Part shown: piece after piece, positions 23,169 to 39,456 of the stretch
How the letters are laid out: each line of letters starts with the position of its first letter
Numbering within the stretch: position 1 is the first letter of the stretch
Source of the DNA: Bacteroidota bacterium
GTDB lineage: Bacteria > Bacteroidota > Bacteroidia > UBA7662 > JAIXUI01
Length of the DNA: 39,456 nucleotides
Assembly (NCBI GenBank): GCA_027484125.1
Contig: JAIXUI010000123.1
Coordinates: 1-39,456 of the forward strand
Direction of reading: 5' to 3'
Notes under the pieces: generated by a model
What the model saw: only the letters and a program-made list of their open reading frames with translations
Databases searched by the model: none
What the model was told of the DNA's origin: nothing
Position numbers and translations under genes: made by a program

Positions 23169-23219
23169 ACTAAGAGATAAATGTGGTTAAAATTAGTATA
23201 TTATCGAAAGTCTTATTTT

Positions 23220-25517
23220 ATGAAAAACACCTTAATTCTCTTAGTACTTCTATTTCGCGCCATGGCGTGCTACTCCCAATGGCCGATGCATTTCGATTCC
23301 GGAACTTATCCAACTAACCCCATTTGGCATGGAGATACCGGAAGTTTTCAGCTTTCTGGAGGGTTGTTACAGCTCAAAGCCACAACTTTTTTTCAACCTG
23401 CTCGAATTGCGACGTTACTTCCTCCAACTTTGGGGGATACGTTAACCTGGCATCTTTGGTTGAGACTGGGTTTTTCACCTTCCTCTTCCAATCAATTCAG
23501 GTGGTACCTCTGGCAAGATCAACCTGTTGTGAGTGATTCTATCGGCGAGTCTTATTACCTGCAAGTGGGTGAAACGGGCAGTTTGGATGCGCCGGAATTG
23601 TATCACCAGGTGGGTACGCAGCATACCTTACTTGGACGAGGCCGATCGGGTGGATGGTCACGCTCAGACAACAGGCTGAGGCTCCAGGTTCTGGCCTTGC
23701 CTTCCGGCCAATGGATGCTTCGCTGTGACACGCTTGCAGGCTATCATTTCGCCGACACATTATGGCAACCGCCAGGCTTGCATCGGCCAACAACCGGAGG
23801 ATACGGTGGTTTTTGGGCGAAGTTTACCTCTAGCAATGCCCAGCGATTTTGGATCGATGAGTTTCATTGGGGGGATTGGCCTTCTACTCCGGTTCAATCT
23901 GCTTCATGTCGTTCGCCGTTATCCCGCGAGATTGTGTTCAATGAAGTTATGGCAGATCCTTCCCCCGCCCTATTTTACCCCGAAGCAGAGTGGTTGGAAT
24001 TGAAAAACCGAACTGACGATACGCTTTGTTTGCAAGGTTTAGGAATTGCTGATACCCGCGACACGGTAACGCTGCCTGATTTTAAGCTTTTGCCTCACCA
24101 AGAGCTTGTTTTAAGTACTGTTTCCATAGTTCCTGGGACATTGATCTTGCCGCGGTTACCTTCATTAAATAACGAAGGGGATTCATTGGTGCTACTTAGT
24201 CCTGATAAAGTGGTTATTGATCGCTTGATTTATCGTGTTTCGCAGTTTGTTAGTAGTTGGAAAGCCAATGGCGGCTGGTCATTGGAACGTATCAATCCTG
24301 ACAGATTATGTCGGCAAATGGAGAATTGGGCAGAGTCGGTGAGTGAAACAGGGGCAACGCCAGGCTTGAACAATAGTCGCCTGGCCTCTCTGCCCGATAG
24401 TGGTTTAATTCGTATGGTGAATGTGTTTCCGGACCAGATGAACACCTTGCGCATCACCTTTAGTGAACCACCAGAGGAGGCGGTACCTGCTTTTGAATTG
24501 GAGGCCTTTTCCGGCACTTGGAAATGGGAGGGAACTTTAAGCAATCGCCCCCATGAAGGGCGTTTGACGTTGAGCGATGAACTTCAATTCGGTAAATACT
24601 ATCGCATTAAGCTAAAGAGCCTAGGAGTTTGCGGATTAGCCGCAGATACTGCTTCCTTGTTACTGGCGCTACCTGAAGCACCGGATTCGGGCAAGGTTCA
24701 AATCAGTGAAATTTATTTCAAACCTGAAAATGGAGAGGACGAGTTTATTGAATTGGTTAATAATGGGGATAAAGTTGTGGATTTGTCTTGGCTTACAATT
24801 ACCAAGAGTCAGGATGTTCAAATCCCCGATGAGGTGGTGAGAATGGCCGAACAGGGGCGATTGTTCTTCCCAGGTGAAAGATTGGTGCTCACTGCCTCCA
24901 AAGCATCCGGAAGATGGAATGGCTGTAATTCGGAAGTGTTGGTTGTTCCAAACTTTCCAAGCCTCACCGACGATGGCGCTTATCTAGGCGTTGCGAGGTG
25001 GTCGGGGCCTTGGTTAGACTTAGTTGCTTATCGGGAAGACTGGAAACATCCGGCGTTATCAGACATCAGGGGGATTTCCTTGGAGCGCCTCGACTTTAAT
25101 CAATCCGGTCTTTTGAGAAGCAGTTGGCTTTCCGCTTCTGACCAAGCCCGAAAAACGCCGGGTTGTCCCAATTCTCAAACCGGGTTTCAGTCTTCTGCTG
25201 GGAAATTTCAATTGTCGTCCCGCTACTTCACACCGGGAACCAATGGAGCGTTAGATTTCTTGGAGATAACTTATCAGCCGCCTTCTGCGGGATTTAGTTG
25301 TAAGCTGAAATTGGTGGATTTAAGTGGTAGAGTCCTCATGGAGTGGCCGGAGTTATTGGGAGGGGAGCAGGTAAAATGGAGATGGGAAGGATTTACCGGC
25401 TCTGGTTCACCGGTTCAAGCGGGCTGGCTGATAGCGGTGCTGGAAGCCAATCATCCGAACGGCACCACTGATCAAGCCGGAGCTGCTTTCGCAATAATTC
25501 CGGATGGCAATCCTTAG
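23220..25517 (+). CDS. Secreted lamin-tail-domain (LTD) protein
   Basis: A 765-residue exported protein (signal peptide MKNTLILLVLLFRAMACYSQ). The ATG at 23220 is preferred over an in-frame ATG 13 codons upstream, because only the later start puts the signal at the N-terminus. The first ~220 residues look like a concanavalin-like beta-sandwich (WPMHFDSGTYPTNP, AGYHFADTLWQPPG). Two LTD-type immunoglobulin folds follow: REIVFNEVMADPSPALFYPE through SLNNEGDSLVLLS, and VQISEIYFKPENGEDEFIELV through FPSLTDDGAYLGVA. The C-terminus (KLKLVDLSGRVLMEWPE ... AGWLIAVLEA) resembles a FlgD-type Ig fold. LTD proteins of Bacteroidota are often large surface or extracellular proteins, sometimes type IX cargo. 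Its stop codon overlaps that of the convergent porQ gene. Confidence 0.8.
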   Translation: MKNTLILLVLLFRAMACYSQWPMHFDSGTYPTNPIWHGDTGSFQLSGGLLQLKATTFFQPARIATLLPPTLGDTLTWHLWLRLGFSPSSSNQFRWYLWQDQPVVSDSIGESYYLQVGETGSLDAPELYHQVGTQHTLLGRGRSGGWSRSDNRLRLQVLALPSGQWMLRCDTLAGYHFADTLWQPPGLHRPTTGGYGGFWAKFTSSNAQRFWIDEFHWGDWPSTPVQSASCRSPLSREIVFNEVMADPSPALFYPEAEWLELKNRTDDTLCLQGLGIADTRDTVTLPDFKLLPHQELVLSTVSIVPGTLILPRLPSLNNEGDSLVLLSPDKVVIDRLIYRVSQFVSSWKANGGWSLERINPDRLCRQMENWAESVSETGATPGLNNSRLASLPDSGLIRMVNVFPDQMNTLRITFSEPPEEAVPAFELEAFSGTWKWEGTLSNRPHEGRLTLSDELQFGKYYRIKLKSLGVCGLAADTASLLLALPEAPDSGKVQISEIYFKPENGEDEFIELVNNGDKVVDLSWLTITKSQDVQIPDEVVRMAEQGRLFFPGERLVLTASKASGRWNGCNSEVLVVPNFPSLTDDGAYLGVARWSGPWLDLVAYREDWKHPALSDIRGISLERLDFNQSGLLRSSWLSASDQARKTPGCPNSQTGFQSSAGKFQLSSRYFTPGTNGALDFLEITYQPPSAGFSCKLKLVDLSGRVLMEWPELLGGEQVKWRWEGFTGSGSPVQAGWLIAVLEANHPNGTTDQAGAAFAIIPDGNP

Positions 25518-32539: not shown

Positions 32540-33883
32540 TTACAAAAGCTCGTTGGCAAGGTTTGCCAACTCTGATCGTTCGCCTTTTTCTAAGGTTACG
32601 TGTGCGAATAATGGCTGTCCTTTCAAGCGTTCAATCAGGTAGGAGAGTCCGTTGGTTTGAGCGTCGAGGTAAGGGGTATCGATTTGGTGAATATCGCCGG
32701 TGAAGATAATCTTGGTTCCTTCGCCAGCTCTGCTGATGATGGTTTTCACCTCATGTGGCGTTAGGTTCTGTGCTTCATCCACAATAAAACAGATGTTGGC
32801 AAAGCTTCTTCCCCTAATGTAAGCCAAAGGCGTAATCACCAATTTTTCGCTATCCAACAGCTCATTGATTTTTTGGAAATCCTTATCGTTTTCGTGGTAT
32901 TGATTCTGAATAAACTTCAAATTGTCGAACAGCGGTTCCATGTAGGGGCTAATCTTTGTGTTAACATCGCCCGGAAGAAAACCAATGTCTTTATTGGACA
33001 AGGGTACAATAGGTCTTGCGAGAAAGATTTGTTTGAATTCTTTTCTTCGCTCTAGAGCTCCTGCCAGCGCCAGCAATGTTTTGCCGGTTCCTGCTACCCC
33101 TTGGAGGGTAACCAGCTTGATGGAGGGTTGCATGACTGCATCTAAAGCAAAAGACTGCTCCGCATTGCGTGGCCTGATGCCATAGGCTGTGGCTTTATCA
33201 ACCCGTATGAAAGCATCGAGAAAGCTATCATAGCGAGCCAACACGGAATTGCTTCCTTGTTTGAAGATGTAGTAATGATTGGGAATTTTTTCTTTGATTT
33301 TCACCGGTTCAGCCGGTATTCTTCCCACCGCATAAAGCTGATCTATCTGAGTTTTTAGTGCTTTTTCAAAGGCGGTAATGCCTTTGTATAGGCTGTCTAA
33401 ATCCTGAATTCTGCCATGCTTATAGTCTTCAGCAGCTAAGTTCAGGGCTTTTGCTTTGATTCTTAGGTTGATGTCTTTGGTTACCAGGATTACCTGCCGA
33501 TTGGGGTAATCTTCCTGCACACTGAGGGCGGTGTTCAGAATTCTGTGGTCGGCCTTTTTATCCGCAAAAATCTTGGTGGCATCACGCTGCGGTTCATGGT
33601 CCATCATGGCTACTCGCAGCTTTCCACCTTGGCTGCCTATGGGAATCCAGTTGTTCAGCGCCGAGGTGCCGGATAGTTTATCGATAAAGCGAATAAACTC
33701 TCTCGCTTCAAAGTTGAGTGTATCGTTGCCTTTTTTGAAATTGTCCACCTCCTCCAATACCGTGATGGGGATAATTACATCATGTTCATGGAAGTTTTTC
33801 ACTGCCTGATGGTCATGAAGAATCACTGAAGTGTCGAGTACGAAAATCTTGTTAAGGATTTCGGCTTTTTTGGTTTTGGCCAT
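32540..33883 (-). CDS. PIN-PhoH family protein (PhoH2-like)
   Basis: A 447-residue protein joining an N-terminal PIN ribonuclease domain (about 10-150; IFVLDTSVILHDHQA with D17, then PITVLEEVDNFKKG and LVTKDINLRIKA) to a C-terminal PhoH ATPase domain. Walker A is LQGVAGTGKTLLALAGAL near residue 260-268, and the Walker B-like segment is ICFIVDEAQNLTPHEVKTII. In mycobacteria, such PhoH2 proteins unwind and cleave RNA using ATP. The enzyme is cytoplasmic. It starts 12 nt after the hybrid kinase gene and may be co-transcribed with it. A 14-bp palindrome, GTAACCTAGGTTAC, overlaps its stop codon (32530-32543). Confidence 0.93.
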   Translation of the reverse strand: MAKTKKAEILNKIFVLDTSVILHDHQAVKNFHEHDVIIPITVLEEVDNFKKGNDTLNFEAREFIRFIDKLSGTSALNNWIPIGSQGGKLRVAMMDHEPQRDATKIFADKKADHRILNTALSVQEDYPNRQVILVTKDINLRIKAKALNLAAEDYKHGRIQDLDSLYKGITAFEKALKTQIDQLYAVGRIPAEPVKIKEKIPNHYYIFKQGSNSVLARYDSFLDAFIRVDKATAYGIRPRNAEQSFALDAVMQPSIKLVTLQGVAGTGKTLLALAGALERRKEFKQIFLARPIVPLSNKDIGFLPGDVNTKISPYMEPLFDNLKFIQNQYHENDKDFQKINELLDSEKLVITPLAYIRGRSFANICFIVDEAQNLTPHEVKTIISRAGEGTKIIFTGDIHQIDTPYLDAQTNGLSYLIERLKGQPLFAHVTLEKGERSELANLANELL

Positions 33884-33895
33884 TGGGGGTTGGTG

Positions 33896-36358
33896 TTATG
33901 CGGGTCTGGTGTTTTGTACCAGAGCATGATAAAGTTCTTCTAACTTGAAAGGCTTGGTGATAAAGTCATTCATGCCAGTTTCTATAGCAGTTTGCCGGGT
34001 TTCATAGAAGGCATCAGCAGTAAGTGCGATGATGGGCACTTCTTTGTTGATGTTAGGGTTTTCTCCTGAACGAATGGCCAAGGTAGCTTCATAGCCATTC
34101 ATCACCGGCATTTGAAGGTCCATTAAAATTACGTCGTACTGATTGTTTTCCAGCATCATGAGCGCAATCTGGCCATTTTCAGCAACAGCTGGGGTGATTT
34201 CAAGCTTCTTCAGCATTTGCTTAGCTAAAGCCTGATTGATTTTATTATCTTCTACCAACAGGACTTTGAGGTTGCCGGTGAGCGAAAGATTAAATGATTC
34301 GTGGGTGTGTGCTTGGCTGATGTTTTCATCGCTCATCATGAATGGCATAATAAAGGTGAACACCGAGCCTTTGCCCGGCTCAGAGCGAACGAAGATTTTT
34401 CCATTTTGTAGTTCAACAAGCTTTTTAGTGATGGCCAATCCAAGGCCTGTTCCGCCAAATTGACGGTTGTTATCCTCATGGACTTGCCTGAAGGTTTCAA
34501 AAACCGATTGAAGTTTTTCAGCCGGTATACCGATTCCGGTGTCTTCCACTTCGAATTTGATAAATACCTGGTTGTCGATTAAGTCGGTTTTCTGCACCTT
34601 CAAGGTTACACTTCCTTGAAGCGTGAACTTCACCGCATTAGAAAGCAAGTTGATGAGGATTTGATTGAGCCTAACTGAGTCTCCTTTAATTTGCAAGGGC
34701 AGGTTAGGGTCTTTTTCTATGTGAATCTCCAGCTGTTTCTCTTTTGCTCTAACCTGAATCATGTTATGAGCATTGTTCAGGATGTCTTCGAGCTGGAAAG
34801 AATGTTGAGAAAAAGTGAATTTGCCGGATTCAATTTTAGAAAAGTCAAGAATTTCGTTGATGATATCGAGCAGAAAATCGGCTGATTGTTTGATCGACAA
34901 GATGTTGTCTCGATAAGATTTGGGTAAATCTTCACTTAAGAGTAGCTCAGAAAAACCGATGATGGCGTTCATAGGAGTTCTGATTTCATGACTCATGTTA
35001 GAAAGGAAAGATGATTTGGCACGATCTGCATTTTCAGCAGCATTCTTGGCCATGATTAACTCATTCTCGATAAGCTTGCGTTGGCTAACATCAAGGAAAG
35101 TACCGATGATGGACGCTAACTGTCCATATCGATTAAAGATGGGTTTGGCGGTTACCTGAACATCTCTGAGCTGACCGGAGGGCAGTTGGAAGCGTATGTC
35201 GGTTTGTTGAATTTCCTTTAAACGAACAGCCCTGTTCATTAAATGCTCAAAAGCGGTTAAGTCTTCCGGATAAATGAGGGATTTTAGTTTTGCAATGTCA
35301 ATTCGAGCATCCGGGCTCAACCCTAGAATTCGGGTAGTTTCGTCGCTCCAAGAGAGTTTATTATTGAGGTGTTCGTATTCCCAGCTGCCATTATGCGAGA
35401 TGCGCTGGGCTTCCTGAAGGCGCATTTCTGCGCGTTTAAGGCTGTCACGCATGGAGATTAGGGCATAACCAAGGTCATCATCTTCAGAAAGAGGCCGATA
35501 TTCAACATCGAAGTTTCCCGATTCAATGCTTTCAGCAAAGCGGGTTGTTCTTTCCATCGAATCGATGAGCCTGTTCACTGAACGATAGATGTCTGAAATC
35601 TCTGTTTCTTCTTCAATATCCGGCAGCTTGTTAAGTCGGCCATTGGCCAAGTCAAAAATGGAGTCTTTCAGGCCGCGTACAGGTTCTGTGATAAGGCGCG
35701 AGAAGTATTTAACTACAAGAAGTGATGCCCCAATGGCTGCAATTATTACTACCAGCAAGATGAAATCTATTCTGGCTCTGTCTTTAATCACAGCGTTTTG
35801 CTTGACTAAGCGTTGTTCATTTAGTCTCTCCTCGATGGTGTGTATCAATCGGAGTGTGCCATCTGCAATTGGATATATTCGGTTTTCTAGCAGGTCTTCT
35901 GCTTTGAAAAGCTCTTCCGGATTGTCATAAGATTCAAAGTCACTGAGCAGGCCCATGATAATTTTCTGCTCTTCCATCATTTCGATGCTGCCTTGAAAAA
36001 CAAATTCAACGGAATCAACGAGCGTCGGTGTTTCCCAAAGGCGCGTTAAACCCCGTATTCTTTGCTGAAGCTCCGGAAACTCTTTAAGTTGAAGTTGTTT
36101 CAAGGCTTTTTTATCAGCTTCATTTCGGCGCAAATACACCCAATTGGTCCCGTACATCCTTGACTTTAACAACAGCTGCTCCATTTCGCGCATGCTTTTG
36201 ATGGAGGGTTCTAGGACGTTATTCACGTGTTCTGAACTCGCGTCACTTTTGTTCAAGGTGAAGTAAACTACCAGGCTAGTAGCCAGATTGAGCGCAACAA
36301 TAATCGAAAGCGCCAGTGTAATTCGCTTATTGATGCCGAAATACCGCAGGTTGATCAT
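33896..36358 (-). CDS. Hybrid sensor histidine kinase/response regulator (HAMP-PAS-HisKA-HATPase-REC)
   Basis: An 820-residue inner-membrane kinase. TM1 (about 12-35) and TM2 (198-219) enclose a ~160-residue helical periplasmic sensor domain. HAMP follows (219-270), then a second HAMP-like linker, a PAS domain (about 310-430: [20 protein letters not shown]), HisKA with H457 in [20 protein letters not shown], and the ATPase (N-box [30 protein letters not shown]). The C-terminal REC domain has D747 in [18 protein letters not shown] and the conserved K in ITKPF. No output domain is present, so signal must leave through a phosphotransfer partner or another regulator not seen here. Its start overlaps the TonB receptor stop (ATGA), placing it third in a coupled operon with the YfiR-like gene. 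Confidence 0.95.
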
Positions 36359-38304
36359 AGGCGGTCCAAGCTTTTGGTGAAACTGAGAACCAGCTCACGC
36401 CCTAGGCTCCGAAACGGTGAAATATACCCGCTGAAGGCTTGTATGGTAGATAGCCGAGTATTGAATAAATCGTTGACTCCTGCCTGAAGCATCCAACCGG
36501 ATTGGCTCCATTTTTTACTGAACATCAGACCGCTGACCCATTGTGCTTCTATTTTTATCGGTACCAACCCGAGATTTTGGCTGAATCGTTCTGACCAGAA
36601 CTGCTGAGTAAGTTGGATAGACCAACCTGAAATTACCGGTATATTCAGGCGAGCATTGATTCTATGCTTGGAGAATGCAACAAAATTATTGGGGTTATTA
36701 ATCAAGCTGAATAGTTCAATTCGGTTTTCGTGTGGAAGCGTATAAGCATAGTTGAAAGCCCAATTCCATTGCTCGTATTGGCCGTAATAGTCGAGCTCTA
36801 TACCTTTTGATCCTATCCTTGTGTCATTGCGATAGGTGTCGAAACCTCCACTGGTTTGGGTGTAGATTACGGGGTCATACAGGTTGTTTAAATACATGTT
36901 GACACTTACACGGTGATTTTTACTCAAATAGCCGATTTCTGTTTCAAAAGTCTCTAAAAACTCCGGCCTTGTTTCGGGGAAAATCTTAAGGTTATATAAC
37001 GAAGGGGTTCGGTAAGCATTGGAGTAAAGCAGCTTAAGGTGCCATGGCCCGAATATTTTGGTATATCCAAATCGAGGCACAAAGAAAGTTCCGAAGAAAC
37101 TGTTTTCATCGAGTCTTGCTCCAGCGGTGAATGTTCCAATCACGCTTTTGTAAAGAGCTTGACTGAAAACGGATAGATTTTGAAGCATAAAATGAATAGG
37201 ACGATTCGGATCCAAAGGATTTAAATTGATAAAATCCTGGTCATCGTGATACACTTCAGCTCCGGCAGTTAATTCCAAATGCTTAGGAGCTTGATAGCGA
37301 AGAATCGTTCTAAATCCCAACCTGAAATTTCGCACGTTGTCTAAATACTCATTGGCGGAATCCTTCGCCACATTCCATGGGGTGGCATACTTGTAGTTGG
37401 CTTGAGATTTTAGTTCGAGCCTTTCGTTGATGTTCCAAGTGTTACTCAGCAAAAGGCTGTGCATGTTTTGCTGATAAGTAACCTTTCGGTAAGAAGGATG
37501 TTCATATTGATTGCCAAGCCATTTCAGGTCCCATTTTTTCCAGTTGAGGTGAACTCCTGCCATTAAATCGCGGGTTCCCGCGGATTCCGAGAGGTTTTTT
37601 GTGATAGAATCTCTTCCACTTTCACCGGATAAAACAATGTTGCCGGTTCCGTATCTACTCTGCGATGCAGATAAAAAGGCTTTTAATCTAAAGTTGCGGT
37701 ATTGAAAAGCAGATTCTGCGTTCAACCTGCTTCTTGAAATGCCATCGGCATTTATTCTTCCTTGCGCATTGACTTGTATAAGAGGGCTTTTTTCTGCTGA
37801 ACTAGTTGTAATGTTGATGACAGAAAGGGCTGCATTCCCTCCATATGCAACTGAGCCAGGCCCTCGAATTATTTCAATGCGTTCAATGGTGCTTGATGGA
37901 TATCGCCCGGCCAATTGATAGCCACCGTAAGCAGTTTCCTGCATTTCATGGCCGTCAATAATTAACAACACTTTGCCCTCTTGCCCCCACAATCCTCTTA
38001 CGCTGATGCTGAGCGCCATCTCAACATCGTGTGCAATTTCTAGACCTGGTACCCAACGAAGTACATCCACTAAGTCTATGGCTTGAAGTTTTTCAATGTC
38101 TTTTCTAGTGAGTACGGAAACAATGCCCGGTGTTTCTCTCGCTGATTGCTCAGAAAGTGTGGCTATGGTAACTTTTACATCCATAAGTTGCTCAAGCGAC
38201 AGCGAATCAAGGGAATCTGGATTTTCTGTGGCAGGAGATTGAGCCTTAAGTCCAATGCTCAGCAGCAAGGTGCAGATTGTTGTCAGTGGGATTAAGTGCT
38301 TCAT
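36355..38304 (-). CDS. TonB-dependent receptor
   Basis: A 649-residue outer-membrane receptor with a signal peptide ([22 protein letters not shown]). The plug domain (about 35-165) shows [52 protein letters not shown] and [20 protein letters not shown]; the barrel runs to the C-terminus. There is no carboxypeptidase-like N-terminal domain and no SusD partner, so it is of the smaller BtuB/FepA-like type. It overlaps the YfiR-like gene at its start and the hybrid kinase at its end, 4 nt each (ATGA). This suggests that receptor, periplasmic protein and kinase work together, perhaps to sense an outer-membrane or imported signal. The ligand is unknown. Confidence 0.93.
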
Positions 38305-38876
38305 GGGGTGCTGGAGATTATTGCCAAACGCTTTAATTCGCCGGCAATTTGAATGGATTTTCTTTGTAGCCTCGAAGGATTAAGTTCAAAGCGGAGTCGG
38401 TCTTCGCGAATTACAAAATTGATGTCAGCTCCTTGTGCTATGCTGCCGGGGTATTCACTAACAATCACAACAGGTTCGTTGTAAACGGCTTTCGCAAGGC
38501 TTTCAAGTTGGTCATGTTCTTTTTCTGCCAGAAATACCAATTCACATTTTTCGGCCTCAGCAATTTGATTGACACTTCGAACCTCAAGAGGCCTATCCTC
38601 TATTTTTTTTCCTGCGCATGCTTGTGTAAGCTCTGTAAGCATGGGTTTATTTCCCCAAACTCCCAAAATGAAAGGTTCTTTCGCATTTCCTTTGAAAGGT
38701 TGAGGCCAGTTGAGGTATTTAACGAAATGATAAACGAATCGGGCATGAACAGCATAGTTCAAATTTTCTTTGCTTACTCCTGTGCGATACCCACACAGTA
38801 CAAAAAAGAGTAAGAGTAACAGCAAAGAAGCTCCTCGGCTTTTTATGGCCATAACCTGTGAAGCAAACCCAGTCAT
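38301..38876 (-). CDS. YfiR-like (DUF4154) periplasmic protein
   Basis: A 191-residue exported protein. After a hydrophobic signal segment (GASLLLLLLFFVLCGYRTG), the mature part reads AVHARFVYHFVKYLNWPQPF, ILGVWGNKPMLTEL, AEKCELVFLAEKEHDQLESL and IAQGADINFVIREDRLRFELN, followed by SIQIAGELKRLA. This is the YfiR pattern, from the N-terminal 'K..Y...F..Y..WP' to the C-terminal 'INF..E..RLRFEIN'. In Pseudomonas YfiR is a periplasmic repressor of the diguanylate cyclase YfiN. The start is set at the ATG at 38876 because a -7-like box (TACTTTTA, 38886-38893 minus) precedes it; a TTG further upstream and an ATG at 38852 are alternatives. It is first in an operon with a TonB receptor and a hybrid kinase. 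Confidence 0.82.
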   Translation of the reverse strand: MTGFASQVMAIKSRGASLLLLLLFFVLCGYRTGVSKENLNYAVHARFVYHFVKYLNWPQPFKGNAKEPFILGVWGNKPMLTELTQACAGKKIEDRPLEVRSVNQIAEAEKCELVFLAEKEHDQLESLAKAVYNEPVVIVSEYPGSIAQGADINFVIREDRLRFELNPSRLQRKSIQIAGELKRLAIISSTP

Positions 38877-38940
38877 TCTTTCGCCTAAAAGTACGGAAAA
38901 ACAGCGGGAAGGCGTAACTTGACAGCACGATAAATACAAC

Positions 38941-39456
38941 TATGCGCTATTTGATTCTCAACGAAGGGGAGCTAGAGCCTCGAGTTAGCCTGTTGCCGGA
39001 GTCGGCTATTGCCATTTTTGGCCAATCGTTTACCGGTATGGTGGAGCGAGGCGCGGGGCTCCATGCTAGCAGGTCAGATACGGATTATTCGTCCTTAGGT
39101 ATTCAAGTGGTTTCCCGTGAAGAAGGGCTGAAACAGGCTGACCTCGTTTTGGGCATTTTACCTTTGTCGGAATCTGATTTGAATCTTTTGGCTGAAGGTA
39201 CTTCGGTATGGGGGATGTATCAGCCTCAGTGGCATCCGGAACGCTTAACACATTTTGAAAAAAGAAGGCTAAATCTTTACAGTTTAGATTGTATTCCAAG
39301 AATTTCCAGGGCTCAGTCTATGGATGTTTTGAGTTCTATGGCTACCGCTTCCGGTTATCAAGCTGTCTTGGAGGCTGCTGCTGCCTTGCCTCGCTTTTTT
39401 CCGATGCTGATGACTGCCGCCGGCACCATCGCTCCTGCTAAAGTACTAGTTATCGG
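38941..39456 (+). CDS. pntA: NAD(P) transhydrogenase alpha subunit, 5' part (runs off the window)
   Basis: The frame opens with MRYLILNEGELEPRVSLLPE and stays open for 172 codons to the window edge. IPRISRAQSMDVLSSMATAS and then RFFPMLMTAAGTIAPAKVLV are diagnostic of the NAD(H)-binding domain I of transhydrogenase PntA, which is close to alanine dehydrogenase; in PntA the next residues form the Rossmann GAGVAG motif, lost here. VERGAGLHASRSDTDY is the N-terminal family motif. PntA with PntB uses the proton gradient to reduce NADP+ with NADH. The gene is divergent from yfiR, with about 64 nt between start codons. Confidence 0.9.

Follow-up and report, generated by a model that had tools for sequence, protein, structure and literature searches.

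Three overlapping genes on the minus strand of the window, a stretch of 39,456 nucleotides from a Bacteroidota bacterium (GenBank assembly GCA_027484125.1, contig JAIXUI010000123.1), encode a secreted YfiR-like periplasmic protein, a TonB-dependent receptor and a hybrid histidine kinase. We propose, with a probability of roughly 0.6, that YfiR controls the kinase via the kinase's periplasmic four-helix-bundle (4HB) sensor, with the receptor as outer input. The three genes probably work as a single relay across the cell envelope. The analysis itself establishes the gene layout, the domains, the predicted fold of the sensor, two conserved associations (YfiR with this sensor, TonB receptor with YfiR plus kinase) and the absence of GGDEF domains. 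The proposal is favoured by the presence of one YfiR, one such sensor and no GGDEF domain in the genome and by natural fusions of YfiR, a transmembrane segment and SpoIIE. It would also follow the precedent of YfiR and HmsC, which bind an inner-membrane transducer at its periplasmic part and are opposed by an outer-membrane partner.

The yfiR-like gene (38301..38876) encodes a signal peptide and a mature domain of the DUF4154 family (PF13689, E 1.3e-33); a TTG at 38939 or an ATG at 38849 are also possible starts. The receptor gene (36355..38304) and the kinase gene (33896..36358) follow, and ATGA overlaps at 38301-38304 and 36355-36358 join the three. These genes, their coordinates and both overlaps had been named in the original prediction, and direct reading of the sequence together with Pfam confirmed them. 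Pfam also agrees with the predicted architecture of the kinase, HAMP, PAS, HisKA, HATPase_c and REC without an output domain. HisKA, HATPase_c and REC lie within a single protein, which makes it a hybrid histidine kinase, and its receiver domain (REC, PF00072; 33920..34264) is without DNA-binding output.

The sensor comprises approximately residues 36-190 of the kinase (35789..36253); its assignment draws on AlphaFold, Foldseek and homology. No Pfam family scored above its cut-off in this region and CHASE8 gave no match. The AlphaFold model, based on a 47-row alignment, consists of four helices and zero strands (pLDDT 94.8, pTM 0.83). Its top Foldseek matches are 4HB sensors of chemoreceptors and kinases (MCP2201, with TM up to 0.82 of target; 4k0d), none of them with E <0.001. 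Against PF12729 (4HB_MCP_1) the window sensor reaches 16.1 bits at a cut-off of 27, and 24 of the 47 members have E <0.01. As modelled, the domain is a divergent representative of the 4HB_MCP superfamily, having the four-helix bundle between two transmembrane helices. The analogy to the periplasmic domain of YfiN, on which the original prediction had drawn, thus fails structurally, since YfiN and the CHASE8 kinases carry CHASE8/PAS whereas the window kinase carries an unrelated four-helix bundle. We call the sensor TNW after a conserved motif. Residues P51, W73 and Y144 are invariant. Conservation is higher at the two membrane-distal tips (2.2-2.4 bits) than in helices 2-4 (1.5-1.8 bits); this excess is modest and we therefore build no claim of a binding site on it. 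Searches started from the window kinase region or from its counterpart in a SpoIIE phosphatase (L055) converge on the same 48 proteins, and homologous sensors are found on YfiR-linked SpoIIE, MCP and GAF proteins. A search of plasmids gave no match to the sensor, and in a phylum-wide sample, whose class make-up is not stated, the sole match outside the class Bacteroidia was weak (E 7e-9).

Co-occurrence of YfiR and this sensor was followed in 80 YfiR loci of the class and 20 sensor loci, whose neighbouring genes were annotated with custom-built profiles; since the set was picked partly by YfiR and partly by the sensor, the fractions from it are descriptive. Among 90 YfiR genes, 55 lie near a gene for a sensor of the window type, 16 near a CHASE8 kinase, two are fused to SpoIIE and 17 have none of these. 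Within 395 Bacteroidia genomes, YfiR occurs in 152, the sensor in 145 and both in 134 (odds ratio 157, kinship of the genomes ignored). The genomes for which a YfiR was listed contain 106 sensor genes; 92 of them are located within 4.5 kb of yfiR, and at least three of the remaining 14 (L129, L130, L133) were found to adjoin YfiR upon fetching. Where such a sensor adjoins YfiR, the output behind it is a kinase, a SpoIIE phosphatase (about 43 cases), an MCP (one case) or a GAF or GAF/PAS protein. Sensor and YfiR are kept together with such varied outputs, and the conserved unit is therefore YfiR plus sensor. Moreover, the tree of the 90 YfiRs places all 16 CHASE8-paired proteins inside one group of 23 and 51 of the 55 4HB-paired proteins on the other side (branch support 96/85). 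Two genomes having both kinds of partner (G025, G207) have one YfiR on each side. On this tree, YfiR sorts largely by the type of its partner sensor.

The source genome (3.33 Mb, 99.7% complete) contains exactly one DUF4154 protein, one sensor of the window kinase's type and no GGDEF domain. In the absence of GGDEF, the target of YfiR in this organism is therefore not a diguanylate cyclase. YfiR is the defining repressor of the YfiBNR and HmsCDE systems of cyclic di-GMP (c-di-GMP) signalling, and a classical module of this kind would have YfiR restrain a diguanylate cyclase encoded elsewhere in the genome. We consider this hardly credible and rejected it on the missing GGDEF, which contradicts it unless the part absent from the assembly holds such a gene; besides, the cluster has no YfiB and the operon's transducer is a kinase. 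The suggestion in the original prediction that YfiR may gate a histidine kinase gains from the GGDEF-free genome, which points to another target, but the idea as such is not new, as YfiR modules with kinase, HPT and MCP outputs were proposed by Malone et al. 2012 (PMC3375315). The partner expected elsewhere for a kinase without output has candidates in the genome: a single Hpt, stand-alone and unlinked to the operon, and 34 REC domains, next to 35 HisKA matches. DUF4154 occurs in 1 of the 21 genomes of the order, the source genome alone, and in 152 of the 395 genomes of the class. The distribution of YfiR is patchy at close range and common across the class; two scans of named genome contigs yielded no informative relative.

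The complete trio recurs as well. L089, whose YfiR is nearest to that of the window on the tree, has the identical order of YfiR, receptor and kinase with REC, and L107 has the same order of YfiR, receptor and kinase with receptor and kinase each split in reading frame. In Pseudomonadota, the alphaproteobacterial plasmid pSRL1 of Sphingobium indicum carries TonB receptor, YfiR and CHASE8 hybrid kinase consecutively in overlapping genes, and the Pseudoalteromonas plasmid pPBSW1 carries receptor, YfiR and a CHASE8-HAMP-GGDEF-EAL protein. The adjacency of DUF4154, TonB receptor and kinase is thus conserved across Bacteroidia and beyond, as had been asked in the original prediction. Because equivalent trios recur, the trio is not a chance grouping. 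A TonB receptor is present in 18 of 23 cases with kinase output as compared to 3 of 43 with SpoIIE output (Fisher p 5e-9, kinship ignored). It is quite unlikely that the three are simply co-transcribed envelope genes under shared regulation without a physical signalling link. The phoH gene, which likewise lies only 12 bp behind and is outside any module, would suit such an arrangement, and so would the fact that the order's other 20 genomes lack the cluster, but the co-occurrence is repeated over differing gene orders, strands and outputs and again in Pseudomonadota.

In the receptor, Pfam detected the plug alone (BtuB/CirA-like, E 5.7e-20). A FecA-type transducing receptor was rejected as the N-terminal STN signalling domain is absent; a SusC-type receptor was rejected as well, the protein having no SusC-type N-terminal extension and its gene no SusD neighbour, in agreement with the predicted lack of a SusD partner. 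CirA and BtuB are the closest solved structures over the plug, and their alignment to the window receptor begins at the TonB box. The receptor's N-terminus (38161..38199) bears the signature SLEQLM and then a TonB-box-like DVKVTIA. The short periplasmic signature SLE-x-LM precedes the plug in 26 of 33 YfiR-linked receptors and in 0 of 18 other receptors parsed from the source genome; it is a possible contact to YfiR or TonB, or simply the mark of a subfamily. With 93 bits the window receptor stays below the curated cut-off of 645 of the NCBIfam family NF053590, and it is only distantly similar to the reference receptor of this YfiR-paired family, TOL_0244 of Thalassolituus oleivorans. TOL_0244 rises on long-chain alkane and resembles OmpS of Alcanivorax dieselolei, which is reported to detect alkanes; for both TonB receptors, detection or uptake of long-chain alkanes has been described (PMC6304351). 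Given the distance of the window receptor, this is no more than a hint of alkanes as a type of input.

Several observations weigh against control of the kinase by YfiR. The YfiR and sensor genes of L119 are adjacent, and an AlphaFold model was made of both with the intervening stop read as Gln, an artificial read-through and not a real protein; its domains are confident but mutually unplaced (pTM 0.56), with no usable interface. A mirror-tree test over 35 SpoIIE loci gave a partial correlation of 0.12 for YfiR and sensor versus 0.35 for YfiR and SpoIIE, hence no excess, the sensor distances being near saturation. The co-occurrence statistic ignores the relatedness of the genomes. Seventeen of the 90 YfiRs have no sensor gene nearby, and 11 of these 17 adjoin a TonB receptor. 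In the tree, the YfiRs of three sensor kinases (L058, L079, L115) lie on the side of the CHASE8-paired proteins; YfiR is missing beside the sensor genes L120-L128, L132 and L134, and from about five genomes with strong sensor matches. The pairing of YfiR and sensor is strong without being exclusive, and further ligands of the sensor are possible. Some of this would also suit a reading in which YfiR serves the receptor, as periplasmic acceptor or partner for its cargo, while the 4HB domain of the kinase senses a small ligand directly, like MCP2201 or NarQ. The 11 pairs of YfiR and TonB receptor and the sensor kinases without YfiR favour it, as do the nearest solved folds of the sensor, which are small-ligand 4HB domains. 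So does the YfiR fold, for which Foldseek, run with the homologue from L119, found weak similarity to a substrate-binding protein (8wgl, 5z6v); the same fold matches solved YfiR structures with TM 0.77 of target. We nevertheless regard this reading as doubtful: in the commonest layout, YfiR, TPR protein and sensor-SpoIIE in about 40 loci, there is no TonB receptor and YfiR and sensor are still together, and in two loci YfiR is fused to SpoIIE.

If YfiR does control the kinase, the signal may run as follows. The TonB receptor in the outer membrane would be the outer input, with its state or its ligand as signal. The secreted YfiR would be a soluble periplasmic adaptor acting on the 4HB sensor, presumably by physical contact, and would restrain rather than activate the kinase. 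The signal would then pass from HAMP to PAS and HisKA and by phosphorelay to the fused REC, from there most likely to the single stand-alone Hpt and finally to a response regulator encoded elsewhere. This would be a YfiBNR-like logic, in which the outer partner binds or frees YfiR and YfiR restrains an inner-membrane transducer.

Known systems share parts of this arrangement. In Pseudomonas aeruginosa, YfiN is the binding partner of YfiR, and YfiB in the outer membrane sequesters YfiR; in Yersinia pestis, HmsC binds HmsD and HmsE counters it (PMC3375315, PMC5550408). The window operon resembles YfiBNR and HmsCDE in combining a periplasmic protein of the YfiR family, an outer-membrane partner and an inner-membrane transducer with HAMP. 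It differs by a TonB receptor in the place of YfiB or HmsE (YfiB being an OmpA/Pal-type lipoprotein), by a 4HB sensor instead of CHASE8/PAS (no CHASE8 match, helices only in the model) and by a hybrid kinase with phosphorelay instead of GGDEF and c-di-GMP. The TOL_0243/TOL_0244 families curated by NCBI (NF053591, NF053590) offer a similar case, for example on pSRL1, where TonB receptor, YfiR and hybrid kinase form one cluster of overlapping genes. In the window, YfiR comes first, the sensor of the kinase is 4HB and not CHASE8, and the scores are below both cut-offs, YfiR reaching 120.2 bits against NF053591 (TOL_0243 YfiR-like family, curated cut-off 125). The YfiR-linked SpoIIE operons of Bacteroidia have the sensor type of the window beside YfiR in common with it, while their output is a SpoIIE-type phosphatase and a secreted TPR protein stands where the window has the TonB receptor. 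TorT and TorS follow a similar general logic, in that a hybrid kinase with a helical sensor is under the control of a periplasmic protein. TorT, a periplasmic binding protein, is not related to YfiR, and the pair acts without a TonB receptor; the TorS-TorT structure 3o1h was a weak match in the Foldseek search with the YfiR fold.

YfiR with kinase outputs was thus already known as a proposal of 2012, and the pair of YfiR and TonB receptor is curated by NCBI. In the open-licence literature we found no paper on YfiR with SpoIIE or on the operon of YfiR, TPR and 4HB-HAMP-SpoIIE, and none that unites YfiR, TonB receptor and kinase as one system. Within the literature searched, the association of YfiR with the 4HB sensor over several outputs and the TonB-receptor/phosphorelay form in a GGDEF-free genome are new. 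We would give even odds to a wider interpretation, in which YfiR is a general periplasmic adaptor that in Bacteroidia is largely dedicated to the 4HB sensor with varied outputs (kinase, SpoIIE, chemoreceptor, GAF), TonB receptors and secreted TPR proteins are interchangeable outer partners, and the window operon is the TonB-receptor/phosphorelay form in a GGDEF-free genome. Little is known about the way in which a receptor of the outer membrane that has no FecA-type signalling domain passes its signal to the cytoplasm, and one such route would exist if a YfiR adaptor coupled TonB receptors to phosphorelays. This would also account for the retention of YfiR in a GGDEF-free bacterium. The link of YfiR to one defined sensor on kinases, phosphatases and chemoreceptors makes the idea testable.

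Other YfiR loci show further arrangements. L055 and about 40 related loci represent a widespread operon of Bacteroidia, consisting of YfiR, the secreted TPR protein and the 4HB-HAMP-SpoIIE phosphatase. In L046 (7905-9779, plus strand) and L047 (450-2831, minus strand) the YfiR domain is fused to a coiled coil, a transmembrane helix and a SpoIIE phosphatase, in one of them also with a PAS domain; here YfiR itself is turned into a periplasmic sensor. A chemoreceptor with MCP signalling domain and the identical sensor type adjoins YfiR in L118 (6961-8700, minus strand). Among the comparison kinases CHASE8 was identified in L033 and L036, and in L036 (5488-11228, plus strand) a PD40-OmpA protein is followed by YfiR, a CHASE8 hybrid kinase and a stand-alone Hpt, that is a YfiB-like OmpA partner plus a complete phosphorelay. 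In the family f17 (L065, L074, L078), yfiR is followed by a BtuF-like metal/cobalamin-binding protein, with no transducer in that place.

Around the window operon, a PhoH/PIN protein (PIN and PhoH ATPase; 32540..33883, minus strand) starts 12 bp past the kinase stop. It may share a transcript with the kinase operon, and phoH does not belong to the conserved module in the related loci examined. Upstream, an alanine dehydrogenase gene diverges from the operon at 38942. Elsewhere in the window, positions 23181-25517 on the plus strand encode a 778-residue protein bearing lamin-tail (LTD) domains.

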